Assembly (NCBI RefSeq): GCF_900170025.1
Contig: NZ_FWEX01000006.1
Span: 1,148,795 to 1,212,794, forward strand
DNA: 64,000 nucleotides
Direction of reading: 5' to 3'
From: Nitrospira sp. ND1
GTDB lineage: Bacteria; Nitrospirota; Nitrospiria; Nitrospirales; Nitrospiraceae
Shown: positions 11,114 through 19,814 of the stretch, piece by piece
Numbering within the stretch: position 1 is the stretch's first letter
Layout: each line of letters starts with the position of its first letter
Notes under the pieces: model-generated
What the model saw: the letters and a program-made list of their open reading frames with translations, nothing else
Database searches by the model: none
Told to the model about the DNA's origin: nothing
Made by a program: the position numbers and the translations under genes

Positions 11114-12190
11114 CTACCGTAATTTGAGCGTGCTCAAGCTGAGCAACGCCAGCAAAATGGCAATGATCCACAGACGCACCACGACCTTCGGCTCGTCCCA
11201 CCCCTTCATCTCGAAGTGATGGTGAATGGGCGCCATATTGAAGATGCGTTTCCCCCGGAGCTTATAGGATCCCACCTGCAGGATGACCGACAACGCTTCG
11301 ATGACGAATACGCCGCCGACCAGGAGCAACAGCAGTTCGTGCTTGCTGATCACGGCCACAGTACCGAGGGCTGCCCCCAACGGGAGCGAGCCCACGTCGC
11401 CCATGAAGACGGAGGCCGGATAGGTGTTGAACCACAAAAAGCCCAGACTGGATCCCAAAATGGCTCCGGTGAAGATGGCGATTTCTCCCGCGCCTTCGAT
11501 GTAGGGGATAAGCAAATATTCGGCCATCACACGGTTCCCGGTCACATAGGCCACGATCGTATACGCCAGCGAGGCGATCATGACCGGACCGATCGCCAGC
11601 CCATCGAGCCCGTCCGTCAAATTGACGGCGTTGGAGCTGCCGACAATGACAAGAATGACGAACACAATGTAGAACCAGCCGAGGTCCGGCGTGAAAAATT
11701 TAAAGAACGGCACGCTGAGTTTCGTCGTATAGCTGGGCAACGTGTAGAGAAAGACGCCGATGGTCAGCGCGACCAGAATCTGGCAGGTGAATTTTTGTGC
11801 CGCCGAGAGGCCTTTCGATTGGCGCTTGATGAACTTGAGATAGTCATCCGCAAACCCGATCGCGCCGAAGCCCACCGTCGCCACCACGACCAGCCACACG
11901 TACCGGTTGGTCATGTCGGCCCACAGCAACGTGGACAACACTACCGCAAAGATAATGAGTATCCCACCCATGGTCGGCGTGCCGCTTTTGGCCAAATGCC
12001 GCTTCGGTCCATCGTCGCGAATCTGCTGGCCGAGCTTGATCTCCTGCAATTTTCGGATGACCCAGGGGGCCATCACAAACGCGATCAAAAACGCCGTGAC
12101 CGCCGCATAGATAATCCGGAAGCTCTGGTACCGAAAAACGTTCAGGAATGAAAACTGTGTGTGAAGGGGGTATAGCCAGTTGTATAACAT
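11114..12190 (-). CDS. mraY: Phospho-N-acetylmuramoyl-pentapeptide transferase MraY
   Basis: MraY is the integral membrane enzyme that moves phospho-MurNAc-pentapeptide to undecaprenyl phosphate, giving lipid I. The GTPTMGG loop, the catalytic [25 protein letters not shown] and the HHH-type motif [20 protein letters not shown] are intact among about ten transmembrane helices. The length of 358 residues fits. The ATG sits just after GTAGG. It lies between murF and murD, the standard order. Confidence 0.97.
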
Positions 12191-12253: not shown

Positions 12254-13717
12254 CTAGCAGGCCTTTCGCGCGACCCGGCGCATTCCCGTCAGGGCGTCCA
12301 CCACTTGCTCCATACGCATCCCGCGCGAGGCCTTGACCAGCACCACGTCGCCTTGCCGAACCATCCGTGCCAGGGCAACGGCTGCCGCCGCCGCATCGGG
12401 CAACTCCGTGATGCTATCGGACGCCATCCCGGCCTGCCGGGCTCCTTCGGCCAATTCTCGTCCCAATACACCACAGGCGAGCAGATGTCCGATTCCTTGC
12501 GCGGCCAGAAACGCTCCGACCTCCCGGTGCATCCGCTTGCTGTCCGTGCCCAGCTCCAGCATGTCGCCCAGCGCCGCAATCGACCGTTTTCCCCGACCGA
12601 GCTCCGCCAGCAGTTGAACGGCCGCTTTCATCGAGGCCGGATTGGCGTTGTAGCAATCGTTAATCACCTGCACCCCATGGGACATGCTGATCTGCGATCG
12701 CATCGCGGCCGGCCGAAATTTGGCCAAACCTTCGGCAATGGCCGTTCCCGATAAGCCCAACGCATACCCGACCGCAGCCGCGGCGAGGGCATTGCTCACA
12801 TTGTGTTGCCCCTGCGTCCGGATGCGAATTTCAGTCTGACGACTCTTTCCCGGCACCACCAGGCCGAACACCGTTCCACCCTTTTCATCGACCCGAATAT
12901 TGACGGCGCGGATTGCTGCCTTGGGAGACACCCCGAACGCCACGACCCGGCACTGCGCCCGGGCCGCGAGATAATCGAAATATTCATCATCGGCGTTCAA
13001 CACCACCGCCCCGTCCTGCGGCAAATGGTCGAGCAACTCGGCCTTGGCCTGCGCAGACCCTTCCATACTGCCGAAAAACTCCAAATGGTCCGGGCCGATG
13101 TTGGTAATCACGCCAATCGTCGGTCTCGCGATTTCACACAGCCGGGCGGTCTGCCCCTGCTGATCCACCCCCATTTCAATGACGGCGGCCTGATGGCGCG
13201 GCGCCAACTGAAACAGAGTCTGCGGGACTCCGATCCGATTATTGAGGTTGCCCTCGGTCTTGAGCGTTTTCCAGCGCTGTGCAACCACCTGGGCGACCAT
13301 TTCCTTCGTCGTCGTCTTGCCGTTGCTCCCCGTGATGGCAATGACCGGAATGGGAAACCGGTTTCGATAATGCGTGGCCAGCCGTTGATAGGACTCCAGC
13401 GTATCTCTCACCCCGAGCAGCATGGGTACGCCGGTACGTTTCGGCGCCGGCGGCAGGCGATAGTCCTCCTGCACGATGGCACAGACCGCCCCCTGGGCCA
13501 ACACCTTCGGCACGAAGGTATGCGCGTCAAACCGCTCGCCCTGAAATGCGATGAAGAGATCGCCTTTGCGCACCAACCGCGAATCAGTCACCACACGACG
13601 AATGCGTTGTTTCAAGTCCTGAGGCGTGACGCCGGCCGGCGGTCTGACACTCAAGACCTCACAGATTTCCTCGACCGTAAACAGCGCCATCACACCGCGA
13701 TTCCCATGCTCCCGCAT
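12254..13717 (-). CDS. murF: UDP-N-acetylmuramoyl-tripeptide--D-alanyl-D-alanine ligase MurF
   Basis: MurF adds the Ddl product to the UDP-MurNAc tripeptide. The N-terminal domain VTDSRLVRKGDLFIAFQGERFDAH, the P-loop ITGSNGKTTTKEMV, ITNIGPDHLEFFG and the C-terminal NDCYNANPASMKAA block identify it. I kept the first ATG because GAGGGA precedes it at good spacing; a second ATG nine codons in (MALFTVEEI) is closer to the family N-terminus but has no clear ribosome site. The start follows murE by 12 bases. Confidence 0.96.
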   Translation of the reverse strand: MREHGNRGVMALFTVEEICEVLSVRPPAGVTPQDLKQRIRRVVTDSRLVRKGDLFIAFQGERFDAHTFVPKVLAQGAVCAIVQEDYRLPPAPKRTGVPMLLGVRDTLESYQRLATHYRNRFPIPVIAITGSNGKTTTKEMVAQVVAQRWKTLKTEGNLNNRIGVPQTLFQLAPRHQAAVIEMGVDQQGQTARLCEIARPTIGVITNIGPDHLEFFGSMEGSAQAKAELLDHLPQDGAVVLNADDEYFDYLAARAQCRVVAFGVSPKAAIRAVNIRVDEKGGTVFGLVVPGKSRQTEIRIRTQGQHNVSNALAAAAVGYALGLSGTAIAEGLAKFRPAAMRSQISMSHGVQVINDCYNANPASMKAAVQLLAELGRGKRSIAALGDMLELGTDSKRMHREVGAFLAAQGIGHLLACGVLGRELAEGARQAGMASDSITELPDAAAAAVALARMVRQGDVVLVKASRGMRMEQVVDALTGMRRVARKAC

Positions 13718-13729
13718 GCGTTCCCTCGC

Positions 13730-15238
13730 TCAGGCTCCGGATCGGAGCGCGCCGATCGCGTCGCGCGCCACTTCCCGATCGTCGAAGTGATGTTTCGTGG
13801 TTCCCACGATCTGATAATCTTCGTGACCTTTCCCCGCGATCAGCACCATGTCCCCGGTCTTCGCCTCACGAATGGCCGCCTCGATGGCCTCCCGACGGTC
13901 TGCAACCATGCGATAGCGAACATGACCCCGGTCCGCCAGCGCCTCCTTGACCCCGACCTCGACCTCGCGCAGGATCGCAGCAGGATCTTCGGTACGCGGG
14001 TTATCCGATGTCAAAATCACCACATCACTATACTGCACAGCTGCACGTCCCATTTTGGGGCGTTTGGTCCGGTCACGGTCCCCGCCACACCCGAAGACAG
14101 TGATGATGCGCCCCGTGCGAAGCGCCTGGGCTGCGGTCAACAACCGAACCAGCGCGTCTTCGGTATGCGCATAGTCCACCACCACGGAAAAGTTCTGACC
14201 GGCCTCGACCAATTCGAACCGCCCCGGCACGTTCGTGACCGTCTCGACAGCGGACCGTACCTGCTCCAGCGTCAGCCCTTCATGCAACACCACTCCGATG
14301 GCAGCCAGGAGGTTCGACACATTATGCTCTCCGACCAGACGGCTCTTGATCGGGCAGGTCCCGACGGGACTGCGCAACGTAAAACTGGTGCCGGCCGGCG
14401 AAAGCCTCACGCCTTCGGGGTAAATATCCGCTTCCCGGTGAAGGCCGTAGGTCCAAACGGGAACGGTGGAGGCCGCTTGAATTCGCGCGCCCCATGGATC
14501 ATCCACATTGATGATCGCCCGCTTCCGCTGCTTCACCGCGCCCGTCCTTCCTAACTCGACGAAGAGTTTCAGCTTCGCCTGGAAATACCGTTCCATGTCG
14601 AGATGAAAGTCGAGGTGGTCCTGCGTGAGATTCGTAAAGACGGCGACATCGAACTCGGATCCGGCAGTCCGATCCAAAGCTAACGCATGCGACGAGACCT
14701 CCATCACCACCGTATCCAACCTCGCATCGCGCATTCGTGCAAATAATTTCTGCAACTCCAACGCGCCAGGCGTCGTATGCGAAGCTGGAATCGATTCCTT
14801 CCCGACGAGATAGGCGACCGTCCCGATCAGTCCGACCTGGCGCTGCGCTGCTTCCAACATGGTTTTGACGACATAGGTCGTCGTGGTCTTCCCATTGGTG
14901 CCCGTGACTCCGATCATCCTCAACGCAGCTGACGGATCGCCATAGAACCGGCTGCCGAGGACCCCCAATGCCGCGCGCGAGTCCTGCACGCGAATGCAAG
15001 GAATCGCACCGACGTCGCCGCTTCGCTGCACCACGACGGCCGCCGCCCCCGCCGCGACCACAGGGTCGAGAAACTGATGGCCATCGACGCGCTCTCCCTG
15101 TACAGCCACGAAGAGGGACCCGGGTCCCACCTTCCGCGAATCGTCAGTCAAGTCGGCAATGGTCACGCGCTGGTCTCCGTTCCGTTCCAGCACTCCGAGA
15201 CGCCCATGAATCGGACTGATCAATTCATCGAGTGTCAT
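13730..15238 (-). CDS. murE: UDP-N-acetylmuramoyl-L-alanyl-D-glutamate--2,6-diaminopimelate ligase MurE
   Basis: MurE adds the third stem-peptide residue. It has DLTDDSRKVGPGSLFVAVQG at the N-terminus, the P-loop VTGTNGKTTTTYVV, NLTQDHLDFH and the C-terminal motif SDNPRTEDP. The DNPR motif is the established determinant for meso-diaminopimelate rather than lysine, so the peptidoglycan should be of the DAP type. The frame allows a TTG start at 15250, but the ATG at 15236-15238, one base after the ftsI stop, is the more natural start. Confidence 0.96.
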   Translation of the reverse strand: MTLDELISPIHGRLGVLERNGDQRVTIADLTDDSRKVGPGSLFVAVQGERVDGHQFLDPVVAAGAAAVVVQRSGDVGAIPCIRVQDSRAALGVLGSRFYGDPSAALRMIGVTGTNGKTTTTYVVKTMLEAAQRQVGLIGTVAYLVGKESIPASHTTPGALELQKLFARMRDARLDTVVMEVSSHALALDRTAGSEFDVAVFTNLTQDHLDFHLDMERYFQAKLKLFVELGRTGAVKQRKRAIINVDDPWGARIQAASTVPVWTYGLHREADIYPEGVRLSPAGTSFTLRSPVGTCPIKSRLVGEHNVSNLLAAIGVVLHEGLTLEQVRSAVETVTNVPGRFELVEAGQNFSVVVDYAHTEDALVRLLTAAQALRTGRIITVFGCGGDRDRTKRPKMGRAAVQYSDVVILTSDNPRTEDPAAILREVEVGVKEALADRGHVRYRMVADRREAIEAAIREAKTGDMVLIAGKGHEDYQIVGTTKHHFDDREVARDAIGALRSGA

Positions 15239-15239
15239 A

Positions 15240-16958
15240 TCAGGACTCAAGGCCGGCCATGGCTAACTTGACCGGCTCATCCACTGCCACGCCCAGATAG
15301 TTGAGTACCTGCTCACCGACCCGACGGAATACCGGCGCAGCCACGACGCCGCCCCAGCCTTCACCGCGCGGCTCGTCGATCACGACGATCATCGCCAGTC
15401 GCGGATCTTCCGCCGGCACATACCCGAGAAACGACCCGACCAGCAGCGTGGAGGAATAGGCGCCGGTGCGGGGATCAACCTTTTGAGCCGTACCGGTCTT
15501 GCCGGCCACCCGGAAGCCCGGGATCGCCGCTTTGCCGCCGGTGCCGTTCGTGACCACTCCCTCCATCAACGTCGTCAGTGTCCTCGCCGTATCGGCAGAA
15601 ATGACTCGCCGCTTCGCTTGCGGCATGGTCTGCGCCACCAATTGCCCCTTGGCGTTACGGATCTCTGAGACCACGAAGGGCTTCATCAACACGCCCCCGT
15701 TCGCAATAGCTGAGACGGCTGTGACCATCTGCAGCGGCGTCACGCCGACCTCTTGTCCCATCGAAATCGAAGCCAGAGAACGCTTGCCCCACTGGCGCGG
15801 TCCCCGCAGCAACCCCACGGCTTCCCCGGGCAAATCGATGCCGGTCTTGTCGCCGAACCCGAAGTCTTTGAGATAATCGAATACCCGCCACTCACCCAAG
15901 GCCATGCCGACCTTCGCCGCGCCGATATTGCTCGACTTCTGAATCATCTGCGCGAAGGTCATCCAGCCGGTTTTTTCGTGATCGTGAATCACGGTGTTGG
16001 CGATCGAGAGTTGCCCGTTCTCTCCATAGATCATGCTCCCGGGCGTCATCACCTTCTCTTCGAGCGCCGCTGCCGCGATCACCGTCTTCATGGTGGACCC
16101 AGGCTCATACGTGTCCGTCAGGGCGCGGTTGCGCCACCGGTCCGGAGCCAGCGCGCGGACCGTGTTGGGGTCGAATCGTGGGCTGACCGCCATAGCCAAC
16201 ACGGCCCCGGTTTTCGGGTCCATGACAATGATCGTGCCTGACTTGGCATTCGATCGACTCACGGCCTCATCCAGCTCTTTCTCAGCGATGTACTGAATCA
16301 CTTCGTCGACGGTGAGGGTCAGACTGTGCCCGGCTGCCGCGCCCTCCTCATTGAGTCCTTTCGGGAATACGGCGCGTCCCAACGCATCACGCTGCAACAC
16401 CACCGCCCGCTTTTCACCACGCAGATATTGCTCGTAACGCAGCTCCACGCCTTCCAACCCACGATCGTCCATGCCGGCAAAGCCCAGCACGTGCGACAAC
16501 AGCGGCCCCTTGGGATAGAAGCGGCGCCCTTCCATCACAACCCCGACTCCATCGAGAGCAAGTCGTTCAAGCCGCCGCCCCTGCTCCGGCTCAAGCTTTC
16601 GCGCCAGCCACACAAAATGCTTTTCCTGCTTCAGTTTCTTTTCGAGCTCCGTCGCTTTGACGTGCAAGATCGGCGAGAGATTGCGCGCCGTCGCACCGGG
16701 ATTCCCGAGGGAAGCCGGAACTCCGAATACGGACGGCACGTCCATGTTCATCGCCAGCACCTTGCTGTTTCGATCGTAGATCGTCCCCCGCGCGCCTTCC
16801 AGCGTGACATTTTTCTGATGCTGTCGATCGGCCTTCACGGTCAGCTCCGCCGACTGCATCACCTGGAGATTCACGAGACGGACAATGACCAGCATAAACG
16901 CGACCACCAGCCCGCAGGCCACCACAATACGGCGACTGCGAAAAGGGGGCGAAGCCAC
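15240..16958 (-). CDS. ftsI: Penicillin-binding protein FtsI (PBP3-type septal transpeptidase)
   Basis: FtsI is the class B PBP that cross-links septal peptidoglycan with FtsW. One N-terminal transmembrane anchor (VVACGLVVAFMLVIVRLV) is followed by the pedestal domain with RGTIYDRN and a transpeptidase domain. The three active-site motifs are visible: SxxK as STMK in YEPGSTMKT, SxN as SSN, and KTG in AGKTGTAQ. The length of 572 residues is standard, and there is no C-terminal PASTA domain. The last base of its stop codon lies one base before the murE ATG, and it overlaps the ftsL end. Confidence 0.96.
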   Translation of the reverse strand: MASPPFRSRRIVVACGLVVAFMLVIVRLVNLQVMQSAELTVKADRQHQKNVTLEGARGTIYDRNSKVLAMNMDVPSVFGVPASLGNPGATARNLSPILHVKATELEKKLKQEKHFVWLARKLEPEQGRRLERLALDGVGVVMEGRRFYPKGPLLSHVLGFAGMDDRGLEGVELRYEQYLRGEKRAVVLQRDALGRAVFPKGLNEEGAAAGHSLTLTVDEVIQYIAEKELDEAVSRSNAKSGTIIVMDPKTGAVLAMAVSPRFDPNTVRALAPDRWRNRALTDTYEPGSTMKTVIAAAALEEKVMTPGSMIYGENGQLSIANTVIHDHEKTGWMTFAQMIQKSSNIGAAKVGMALGEWRVFDYLKDFGFGDKTGIDLPGEAVGLLRGPRQWGKRSLASISMGQEVGVTPLQMVTAVSAIANGGVLMKPFVVSEIRNAKGQLVAQTMPQAKRRVISADTARTLTTLMEGVVTNGTGGKAAIPGFRVAGKTGTAQKVDPRTGAYSSTLLVGSFLGYVPAEDPRLAMIVVIDEPRGEGWGGVVAAPVFRRVGEQVLNYLGVAVDEPVKLAMAGLES

Positions 16959-17290
16959 TATCGCGCTCTCCGCGTTACGATGTTTTTGGCGATCCGCACC
17001 TCACCCTCCGCAACGACGGGATTGGTCGGCGCTTCCGGCTCGATATTGATGACGACGACCTGGCCCTTCTCCGGCTGCATCATCCCCAACTTGTCGCTGG
17101 CCAGACGCGCAATCCGCTCAGGTGCCGTGAGGCCGGAGATCTTCACGCGCAATTCATCGCGCTCCCGCTCCAGGAGGACCTTCTGCGCCTTCAGCCGTTC
17201 GATGTGGTAGCCGATGCGAACGATGTCCACCCGCTCCCACACAAAGAGCAACACCAGCGACGTGACCGCGGCAAACGCGACGGCTTTCAT
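16958..17290 (-). CDS. ftsL: Cell division protein FtsL
   Basis: This 110-residue protein has one N-terminal transmembrane helix (AVAFAAVTSLVLLFVWERVD) and then a predicted coiled coil (YHIERLKAQKVLLERERDELRVKI). That is the FtsL layout, in which the coiled coil pairs with FtsB in the FtsQLB complex. Sequence conservation is low in this family, so position between rsmH and ftsI carries much of the weight. Its start overlaps the rsmH stop by four bases and its stop overlaps the ftsI start by one. Confidence 0.9.
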   Translation of the reverse strand: MKAVAFAAVTSLVLLFVWERVDIVRIGYHIERLKAQKVLLERERDELRVKISGLTAPERIARLASDKLGMMQPEKGQVVVINIEPEAPTNPVVAEGEVRIAKNIVTRRAR

Positions 17291-18216
17291 TTCACATACT
17301 CCTTGGAGATCCGCTCCACGACTCGCAACTTTGCGCTCCGTGACCGCGGGTTTCGGCTACGCTCGCTTTCCGAGGCGATGACCGGTTTTTTCGTCAACAC
17401 CCTGACCGACGCTTCGGGGCCGTTCGCCAGCGACCGAAACGTATGCTTCACGATCCTGTCTTCGAGCGAATGAAACGAGACGGCACAGACACGCCCGCCC
17501 GGCGCCAGAATGTCCACCGCATCCCGGAGCGCCGGCTCCAACACGTCCAACTCACGATTCACGGCAATCCGCAACGCCTGAAAGGTGCGCGTGGCGCAAT
17601 GAATTCGTCCGTGCCGATACGAAGCCGGCACCGCGCGTCCCACCACTGCCGCCAACTGCCAGGTTGTTCCGATCACCCCCTGCATCCGGGCCTGCACGAT
17701 CGCGCGGGCAATTCTGCGCGAGTACCGCTCCTCACCGAGCTGATAGATCAGATCGGCCAACTCGGTCTCGGGCAGATCGCGAACCAGGTCTGCAGCCGTG
17801 CGTCCCTCGCGCTGATCCATGCGCATATCCAGCGGGCCGTCTTCCCGAAAACTGAAACCGCGCTCCGCACGATCGAGCTGAGGCGAGGACACGCCCAGAT
17901 CGAAAATCACGCCATCCACCCGCGACACCCCGCTCCCCATGATCAACGCTTTCAGGTCGCAGAAATTTCCGTGTCGGAAATGCACCCGATGCGCGACCTC
18001 TCGCAGACGCATTTGCGACTCCGCGAGTGCCGCGGCATCGCGATCAATCCCCACAAAGATGCCATCTGGAGCGGTGCGATCGAGGAGACGAGCAGCGAGC
18101 CCTGCATATCCAAGAGTGCAGTCCACGTAAACACCACCTGGTTTACACTGCAACCAGAACAAGATCTCTTCGACTAAAACCGGCTCATGGGAATCGCGAG
18201 CAGAATCTATTTCCAT
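17287..18216 (-). CDS. rsmH: 16S rRNA (cytosine(1402)-N(4))-methyltransferase RsmH
   Basis: RsmH (MraW) methylates N4 of C1402 in 16S rRNA. It starts with the family signature HEPVLVEEILFWL, then YVDCTLGYAGLAARLL for AdoMet binding, DGVIFDLGVSSPQLD, GFSFREDGPLDMRMD and the C-terminal AVSFHSLEDRIVKHTF. I chose the ATG at 18214-18216. Upstream in-frame starts at 18240 and 18264 would place the codon at or before the likely transcription start of the -35/-10 pair at 18248-18275. GGGTGGAA supplies a ribosome site. It heads the dcw operon. Confidence 0.95.
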   Translation of the reverse strand: MEIDSARDSHEPVLVEEILFWLQCKPGGVYVDCTLGYAGLAARLLDRTAPDGIFVGIDRDAAALAESQMRLREVAHRVHFRHGNFCDLKALIMGSGVSRVDGVIFDLGVSSPQLDRAERGFSFREDGPLDMRMDQREGRTAADLVRDLPETELADLIYQLGEERYSRRIARAIVQARMQGVIGTTWQLAAVVGRAVPASYRHGRIHCATRTFQALRIAVNRELDVLEPALRDAVDILAPGGRVCAVSFHSLEDRIVKHTFRSLANGPEASVRVLTKKPVIASESERSRNPRSRSAKLRVVERISKEYVK

Positions 18217-18220
18217 TTCC

Positions 18221-18235
18221 ACCCACTTTACCCCA
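18221..18235 (-). promoter_or_regulatory. MraZ-box-like repeat TGGGG-N5-TGGGT in the rsmH leader
   Basis: On the minus strand the leader reads TGGGGTAAAGTGGGT: two TGGGN units separated by exactly five bases. MraZ is known to bind TGGGN repeats spaced by five bases upstream of dcw clusters. A further TGGGT lies inside the promoter spacer, but not in the ten-base register. The element falls between the predicted transcription start and the rsmH ATG, where a bound repressor would block transcription. No mraZ gene lies next to it, so this is a sequence match only. Confidence 0.45.
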
Positions 18236-18247
18236 CTCATTGGGTGG

Positions 18248-18275
18248 AGTATACACCCAACCAAATGACTGTCAA
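18248..18275 (-). promoter_or_regulatory. Sigma70-type promoter of the dcw operon
   Basis: The minus strand carries a perfect -35 hexamer TTGACA (18270-18275), a 16-base spacer and a -10 hexamer TATACT (18248-18253, five of six consensus bases). The expected start of transcription is about 18240-18242, leaving a leader of some 25 bases before the rsmH ATG at 18216. It is the best promoter I can see near the start of the cluster and probably drives most of the 17-kb operon. Confidence 0.75.
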
Positions 18276-18312
18276 CAGAATTAACCCCTATTTATCAAGA
18301 ATATTGTTCAGT

Positions 18313-18328
18313 TTAGACACATGTCTAA
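18313..18328. promoter_or_regulatory. 16-bp perfect palindrome upstream of the dcw promoter
   Basis: The sequence TTAGACA-CA-TGTCTAA is a perfect 7-bp inverted repeat with a two-base centre, lying about 38 bases upstream of the -35 hexamer. Size and symmetry fit an operator for a dimeric regulator of the dcw promoter. I do not recognise the cognate protein. Confidence 0.5.
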
Positions 18329-18351
18329 TTTGGCCGGAATTTGCAGGAAAG

Positions 18352-18383
18352 TTATCCACATTTGTGGACAAGTCTGTGGGAAA
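18352..18383. promoter_or_regulatory. Cluster of three DnaA-box-like 9-mers
   Basis: TTATCCACA at 18352-18360 is an exact consensus DnaA box. It is followed after two bases by TGTGGACAA (18363-18371), the reverse complement of the one-mismatch box TTGTCCACA, and then by TGTGGGAAA (18375-18383), a poorer match. An AT-rich stretch lies on the rsmH side (about 18275-18345). Either DnaA regulates the dcw promoter or this is part of a replication origin. No dnaA gene is in the window, so I prefer the regulatory reading. Confidence 0.55.
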
Positions 18384-18465
18384 CTCGCCCACCTGACAAT
18401 TATCTTCGGGCAAGTTTCTGTCAGGGGAAAATGGGGATCATCAAAAAATCAGATGGATGAAATAC

Positions 18466-18499
18466 CTGCATTTCGGTGGTCGCTCGGGCCGAAATGCAG
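18466..18499 (-). terminator. 11-bp stem-loop after asnS, possible terminator or attenuator
   Basis: CTGCATTTCGG (18466-18476) and CCGAAATGCAG (18489-18499) form a perfect 11-bp stem with a 12-base loop, beginning 23 bases downstream of the asnS stop. There is no immediate U tract on the minus strand; a run of six T (18443-18448 as A on the plus strand) comes about 18 bases later. It could end asnS transcription or merely protect the 3' end. Confidence 0.45.
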
Positions 18500-18521
18500 G
18501 CAGAAACGGAAGGACTCGCCG

Positions 18522-19814
18522 CTATGGATAAAGTCGATACAACATCCGCGGAAAGGGAATCGTTTCCCGCACGTGATCGAGCCCACAAATCCAGGCCACG
18601 GCACGCTCAATACCCATTCCAAACCCCGCATGCGGAACCGAGCCGAACCGGCGAAGGTCGAGATACCATTGAAACGCCTCAACCGGTAGATGGTGCTCCT
18701 GAATGCGTCCCAAGAGTTTTTCGTGAGAATGGATGCGTTGGCCACCGCCGATGATTTCTCCATAGCCTTCCGGCGCCAGCACATCCATACAGAGGGCCAG
18801 ATCAGGCCGCTCCGGATCCGTCTCCATATAAAATGCTTTCAAGGCCGCAGGGTATCGATGCACGATCACCGGCCGATCGAATTCATTGGACAGAATCGTC
18901 TCATCATCGGCGCCAAAATCGTCACCAGGCTTGGCAGGATTTCCTTTCCGCTGCAGAATATCGATGGCTTCTTCGTAGGTAATACGAGGAAACGGCGCCG
19001 TCACACACTCCAGCTTCACGAGATCCCGTTCAAGCAGGAGCAGCTCGGCACGACGCCCCTTCAGCACCGCCGCCACAATATGAGACAGGAACTGTTCAGC
19101 CAGATCCATCATATCGGGCAATTGCGCAAAGGCCACCTCCGGCTCCACCATCCAAAATTCCATTAAATGCCGGCGCGTCTTGGACTTTTCCGCGCGAAAG
19201 GTCGGACCGAAGCAATACACCTTTCCAAACGCCGCGGCTGTGGCCTCACTATAGAGTTGCCCGCTCTGAGTCAAATAGGCCGTCTCATCGAAGTATGGCG
19301 TTTGAAATAAGGTGGTCGTGCCCTCACAGGCATTCGGCGTAAAAATCGGCGCGTCGACCAGCGTAAAGCCACGATCGTCGAAAAAGTTCCGACAGGCTCG
19401 AATAATTTCATGGCGAATGCGAAGCACGGCATGCTGTCGGCTGGAACGCAACCAGAGATGGCGATGCTCCATCAAGAATCCCGTGCCGTGTTCTTTCGGT
19501 TGGATGGGAAAAGGCTCCGCTACCTGCAACACTTCAAGACGCAGCACGTCGAGCTCATACCCGCCCGGCGCACGCGCATCCTGCCGTAACGTGCCGGTGA
19601 GGACGAGACTGGACTCCTGGGTGAGTTCCGCCGATCGAGCAAACTGTGCATCACCCACCGTCGCTTTGCTCACGACCGCCTGAATGTCCCCGGTTCCATC
19701 TCGCACGATCAGAAAATGGAGCTTGCCCTTGTCTCGACGACTGCGGAGCCACCCCCGAATCGTCACATCCTGTCCGGCATGGGCGGCCGCTTCATCGATA
19801 TACATCACAGGCAT
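18522..19814 (-). CDS. asnS: Asparaginyl-tRNA synthetase
   Basis: This class II synthetase charges tRNA(Asn). An N-terminal OB-fold anticodon-binding domain ([23 protein letters not shown]) precedes the catalytic core. The core shows motif 2 ([25 protein letters not shown]) and motif 3 ([27 protein letters not shown]). The ending IPFPR rather than a LFPRD-type motif separates AsnRS from the AspRS subgroup. The length of 430 residues is usual. It is transcribed toward the dcw cluster but separated from it by about 300 bases carrying its own promoter. Confidence 0.95.

Follow-up and report, generated by a model that had tools for sequence, protein, structure and literature searches.

What is a cluster of DnaA boxes doing in front of the division and cell-wall (dcw) operon of Nitrospira sp. 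ND1? How replication initiation is coupled to division in bacteria is an unsettled matter. A sequence-only reading of the window (the whole stretch of 64,000 nucleotides analysed here, from contig NZ_FWEX01000006.1) offered two explanations for the cluster: a direct link from DnaA to the septation genes, or an origin segment located away from dnaA. We compared the site across related genomes and weighed these and other explanations.

The box cluster and its setting

The genes on the minus strand run in the order asnS, rsmH, an ftsL-like gene, ftsI, two Mur ligases and mraY. About 300 bp separate asnS from rsmH and hold, in the direction of rsmH, a possible asnS terminator, the box cluster, an AT-rich element and the promoter. 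The features, in window coordinates, are as follows.

11114..12190, minus strand: mraY (PF00953)
12254..13717, minus strand: Mur ligase, murF by position
13730..15250, minus strand: Mur ligase, murE by position
15240..16958, minus strand: ftsI/pbp transpeptidase (PF00905, PF03717)
16958..17290, minus strand: ftsL-like short protein, named by position (no Pfam match)
17287..18216, minus strand: rsmH (mraW), first gene of the dcw operon (PF01795, 5e-106)
18219..18237, minus strand: GTGG-type repeats with a 10-bp period, just before rsmH
18248..18253, minus strand: -10 hexamer TATACT of the dcw promoter
18270..18275, minus strand: -35 hexamer TTGACA of the dcw promoter, at a fixed distance to the box module
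18290..18307, minus strand: conserved AT-rich element ACAATATTCTTGATAAAT, between module and promoter
18352..18360, plus strand: DnaA box 1, TTATCCACA (exact), promoter-proximal at dcw
18363..18371, minus strand: DnaA box 2, TTGTCCACA, head-to-head with box 1 across a gap of 2 bp
18375..18383, minus strand: DnaA box 3 (weak), TTTCCCACA, oriented as box 2 and 3 bp past it
18375..18392, minus strand: GTGGGNNNGTTTCCCACA, box 3 plus an inverted GTGGG
18465..18500, minus strand: inverted repeat CCTGCATTTCGG/CCGAAATGCAGG after asnS, possible asnS terminator
18522..19814, minus strand: asnS, upstream gene on the same strand, ending before the module (PF00152, PF01336)

The layout described in the sequence-only reading holds: one exact box and two near-matches lie at 18352-18383, the first two form a near-perfect inverted pair (box 2 has one mismatch to TTATCCACA), the neighbouring AT-rich stretch includes the conserved 18-bp element, and the cluster is upstream of a TTGACA-16-TATACT promoter at 18275-18248. 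Box 3 departs from TTATCCACA at two positions and from the looser TTWTNCACA at one; at least two matches to TTWTNCACA fall within this short stretch, above chance. The AT-rich element, with 95% pairwise identity and 11 of 18 columns invariant in 27 genomes, is a possible UP element or IHF-like bend site. It reads CAA-N5-TTGATA, 1 bp too long for the IHF consensus, the spacer of which is given as N4 (PMC10380432).

Other elements of the intergenic region were also considered. A T-run, TGATTTTTTG, stands further on from the asnS inverted repeat, and a terminator scan of 18180-18560 scored none, this repeat included. The GTGG-type repeats at 18219..18237 resemble what we take to be MraZ boxes. 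An MraZ operator was rejected as an explanation of the module, since these direct repeats adjoin rsmH, outside the module, and mraZ is a separate locus (C6:820195-820602 in ND1, G000), after comF- and FmdB-like genes; it is also far from rsmH in the other examined genomes in which the place of rsmH is known. No GTGGG repeat array was seen before mraZ at C6:820195. A perfect palindrome, TTAGACATGTGTCTAA, at 18313-18328 is present in the nearest relatives only and is a possible operator for another regulator.

Conservation, spacing and a twin module at dnaA

Single boxes are not enriched: the exact 9-mer TTATCCACA occurs 13 times in the genome versus 14 times for its reversed control, and the window holds 13 boxes with at most one mismatch versus 7.07 +/- 2.83 in 100 shuffles, five of which reach 13. 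The case stands on geometry and conservation. A 1.1975-Mb sample of the closed relative G023 contains just two pairs of one-mismatch boxes no more than 30 bp apart versus 0.4 expected, and these two are the dnaA site and the dcw site. Of the 29 genus genomes, 25 carry a single copy of the inverted pair TTRTCCACANNTGTGGAYAA; the 32 other genomes of the order have none, and the reversed control of the pair is absent from all 61. The four genus genomes that lack it have a degenerate pair (G004), a single change in box 2 (G043), the variant TTATACACA (G010) or a contig end (G017). On these comparisons, the three-box cluster before dcw is not a product of chance.

The boxes are conserved genus-wide, as a comparison of the intergenic region in related genomes shows. 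Box 1 is TTATCCACA in 25 of 27 aligned genus genomes, the exceptions being G020 (TTGTCCACA) and G004 (ATATCCACA); the GTTTCCCACA of box 3 is invariant in all 27, and its position is occupied by TTATTCACA-type boxes in the dnaA-upstream module of the order's other families. The module block has 87% pairwise identity with 26 of 46 columns invariant in this alignment. Neither flank has an invariant column: pairwise identity is 36% over the 60 columns next to asnS and 48% over the 45 that lead to the AT-rich element.

Spacing to the promoter is nearly constant. Of 26 genomes, 22 have 76 bp between the pair and TTGACA and all have 75-77 bp, so that the boxes keep their distance from a conserved promoter in 26 of 27 genomes; the 27th, G004, differs by 4 bp (103 versus 99 bp, measured from box 3), and its boxes 1 and 2 are degenerate. 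Of 25 gaps between module and asnS, 23 were usable and span 130-300 bp, the values for G014 and G044 having been left out as negative, low-identity partial matches. A constant distance maintained across drifting sequence indicates that the module is tied to the promoter or to the adjacent AT-rich element, and the fixed spacing might reflect coupling to this element instead of RNA polymerase. The degenerate boxes and longer gap of G004 imply that the pair is dispensable there. The 18-bp GTGGGNNNGTTTCCCACA, which apart from two one-mismatch matches occurs at dcw only, is more conserved than the DnaA pair and is intact even in G004, so a second protein may use the box 3 half.

The dnaA, dnaN and gyrB genes lie together 720 kb from the cluster, and 64 bp before the dnaA start we found TTATCCACA-CC-TGTGTATAA-GGC-TGTGAACAT. 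The dcw module, TTATCCACA-TT-TGTGGACAA-GTC-TGTGGGAAA, equals it in order, orientation and gaps. The boxes upstream of dnaA, an autoregulation site or part of oriC, are thus the same three-box module in the same genomes, although the dcw copy has the opposite orientation to its gene, lies farther upstream and carries TTTCCCACA instead of ATGTTCACA as box 3.

We searched the 61 genomes (29 from the genus, 32 others from the order) for the module as TTRTNCACANNTGTGNAYAANNNTGTG with at most two mismatches. Within the genus, the dnaA site was found in 28 of 29 genomes, 63-64 bp before dnaA and in each case checked against the gene, and the dcw site in 27 of 29, of which 26 stand before rsmH; the remaining one, in G010, is at a contig end, with its asnS side aligning. 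No third place for the pattern was found in the 29 genomes at this threshold, the additional listed matches being the dcw pair read on the opposite strand, and the reversed pattern was absent from all 61. Outside the genus, 22 of 32 genomes have one site, located 62-111 bp before dnaA in all of these except G055, and none of the 32 has a three-box site at rsmH.

A draw of 198 genomes from the phylum, searched with at most one mismatch and counting pattern copies per genome wherever they lie, gave two sites in 11 of 12 genus genomes and exactly one in 31 of 34 genomes from the same family outside the genus. Beyond the family, genomes with exactly one site numbered 1 of 10 in the rest of the order, 2 of 9 in the rest of the class and 6 among the other 133. 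Taken with the counts for the order, these numbers suggest that the second copy is confined to the genus Nitrospira as far as sampled, and our best reading is a DnaA operator at dcw gained in the Nitrospira stem.

Two more TTATCCACA boxes are present at C6:1888925 and C6:1888973 (L098), 48 bp apart and 1.3 kb upstream of dnaA. Their position is kept in six genus genomes, in some as TTTTCCACA or TTGTCCACA, and they are possibly a further part of oriC.

The twin at dnaA also bears on what binds the module. The block could instead be the palindromic operator of an unrelated regulator, or an RNA element at the asnS 3' end, that merely resembles DnaA boxes; it does hold GTGGGNNNGTTTCCCACA, whose conservation exceeds that of the boxes, and RNA pairing between the inverted repeats of the block is conceivable. 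We regard this as very improbable in view of the module of the same geometry upstream of dnaA, the lack of conservation on the asnS side, and variants that keep the box pattern and not the pairing (box 2 as TTATACACA in G010; box 1 as TTGTCCACA opposite TTATCCACA in G020). A terminator or RNA hairpin was rejected on the same variants and the empty scan of 18180-18560.

Operator, titration site or origin

We propose that the cluster is probably a three-site DnaA-binding module serving the dcw promoter as an operator. The twin at dnaA, alike in box order and in its gaps of 2 bp and 3 bp, makes DnaA the obvious candidate ligand in preference to an unrelated factor; the host protein aligns with solved DnaA over residues 1-443, including KDHTT of the DNA-binding domain. 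In the proposed mechanism, DnaA would bind the head-to-head pair at high affinity and extend to the weak box 3, occupying the module about 110-143 bp upstream of the predicted transcription start. Bound DnaA would then modulate RNA polymerase, probably via the conserved AT-rich element, at which the DNA may bend. Regulation of dcw transcription by DnaA would follow, with activation slightly favoured over repression as its sign because the module is far upstream of the -35 hexamer, and the response may depend on the ATP/ADP state of DnaA. With the same module 63-64 bp before dnaA, the initiator gene and the division and cell-wall operon would be read by one DnaA pool through the same cooperative geometry.

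Known cases bear on this model in both directions. A review (PMC8203912) reports in vivo binding of Bacillus subtilis DnaA to the promoter region of ftsL. The same review notes that the equally suggestive boxes in Escherichia coli ftsQA do not control ftsZ, and B. subtilis levels of RsmH and PbpB upon replication arrest are reported as comparable to wild type (PMC11019786); together with the degenerate pair of G004 and the stronger conservation of the box 3 half, these two observations count against the operator model. Literature on Nitrospira DnaA boxes or origin, and on DnaA together with dcw or mraZ, showed nothing on the dcw site in its titles and the starts of its abstracts.

A module serving purely for DnaA titration, without a local effect on dcw, is quite improbable. 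DnaA-box clusters outside oriC are described in that role in B. subtilis (PMC5295017), and one additional site per genome, at 438-716 kb from dnaA in five closed genomes (for G004, the rsmH locus), would be compatible with it. However, three boxes are few, and titration has no need for the 76-bp promoter distance or for the constant downstream neighbour seen in 26 genomes.

To see how common the arrangement is elsewhere, we scanned bacterial genomes for the inverted pair and obtained at least 120 stretches and, among the matches listed, 127 pairs. In 52 of these listed pairs, a third CACA is spaced exactly 3 bp from the pair, on either side, while any other gap accounts for at most seven cases. 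The third CACA accompanies 42 of 60 listed pairs beside dnaA versus 10 of 67 elsewhere, a bias that counts in favour of the DnaA reading, and one of the latter ten is a Nitrospira dcw site (L190). In another of the ten, from an unclassified metagenome-assembled genome (JAUHWK010000160.1, L135:1806-1825), the three-box module stands 100 bp before mraZ-rsmH, apparently an independent case of the module at a dcw operon. The third box of this copy continues into a GTGGG repeat of 10 bp.

This distribution also lends something to the idea of a second replication origin or a relocated oriC segment: among the matches listed, the three-box arrangement elsewhere is commonest beside dnaA, and the dcw site combines an inverted box pair with an AT-rich stretch. 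GC skew speaks against it. In G023, sampled as 60 segments of 20 kb, skew stays above zero for about 2.33 Mb from dnaA (position 0) and is below zero over the rest, apart from one weakly positive sample (+0.004 at 3.672 Mb). The sign thus changes at dnaA and near 2.33 Mb; the site, 717 kb from dnaA in this genome, is inside the positive arm (+0.104 at 706-726 kb) and has neither a skew switch nor dnaA-dnaN beside it. The dnaA-dnaN-gyrB genes 720 kb away have their own conserved boxes. The origin explanation put forward in the sequence-only reading is refuted by these two lines of evidence and is hardly credible at all. The other half of that proposal, a link between DnaA and septation genes, gains support from comparison, through genus-wide conservation, the dnaA twin and the fixed spacing at dcw.

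That a whole genus keeps one DnaA module, with the geometry of the dnaA site and at a fixed distance from the dcw promoter, suggests a direct link from the start of DNA copying to division. The pair of modules yields a sharp prediction of two targets, dnaA and dcw.

Comparison with known DnaA-binding loci

A close structural parallel is with the DARS loci of E. coli. In strain MG1655, DARS1 reads TTATCCACT, 5 bp, inverted TTATCCACA, 3 bp, inverted TAATACACA, and is presumably located between bioD and uvrB, a placement supported by the matching box arrangement. DARS2, upstream of mutH, reads TTATTCACC, 5 bp, inverted CTATCCACA, 3 bp, inverted TTCTTCACA, and the location read here agrees with published deletion primers (PMC4585315). 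Both cores share with the Nitrospira module the forward-reverse-reverse order and the 3 bp separating boxes II and III, with boxes I and II head-to-head and box III oriented as box II, and each organism has two of these loci in its genome. Boxes I and II are 5 bp apart in the two E. coli cores and 2 bp apart in Nitrospira, whose modules precede dnaA and dcw. The module may work like a DARS; with its different core spacing it is not classed as one.

It is nevertheless worth asking whether the site before dcw is a DARS-like station for DnaA nucleotide exchange that tunes ATP-DnaA and the timing of initiation, with or without an effect on dcw. Besides the shared order, orientation and 3-bp gap, the head-to-head pair is called a characteristic and essential feature of DARS (PMC10380432), and further papers describe it as essential, with box III assisting DnaA on box II (PMC8682772; PMC5742627). 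IHF is reported as conserved in Nitrospirae (PMC10316083), and the distance from the module to the IHF-like AT-rich element is constant; DARS2 has IHF and Fis sites at defined spacing. Against this stand an I-II gap of 2 bp instead of 5, a 1-bp departure of the AT-rich element from the IHF consensus, the link between the site and promoter spacing, and the presence of the module before dnaA across the order, where autoregulation or origin function would usually be expected. By analogy such an exchange station is conceivable, if unlikely. A combination with the operator model, in which a DARS-type core is wired into the dcw promoter and bound DnaA both exchanges its nucleotide and sets transcription of the division operon, is likewise doubtful. 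If true, one complex would report the state of initiation and license division, and dnaA and dcw would be the two members of a three-box DnaA regulon in Nitrospira. The 2-bp/3-bp geometry recurs beside dnaA in distant bacteria and is near but not equal to that of the DARS core.

Among division loci, the review cited above (PMC8203912) offers three comparisons. DnaA boxes are likewise found near division genes at E. coli ftsQA. The Caulobacter ftsZ promoter, which is under DnaA, also has boxes near division genes, but with binding data. The promoter of the B. subtilis ftsL operon resembles the Nitrospira site in placing DnaA at an operon with rsmH, ftsL and a division transpeptidase gene; it belongs to another phylum, and its basis is ChIP (Goranov et al. 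2005, via PMC8203912), whereas the Nitrospira site is described from its sequence.
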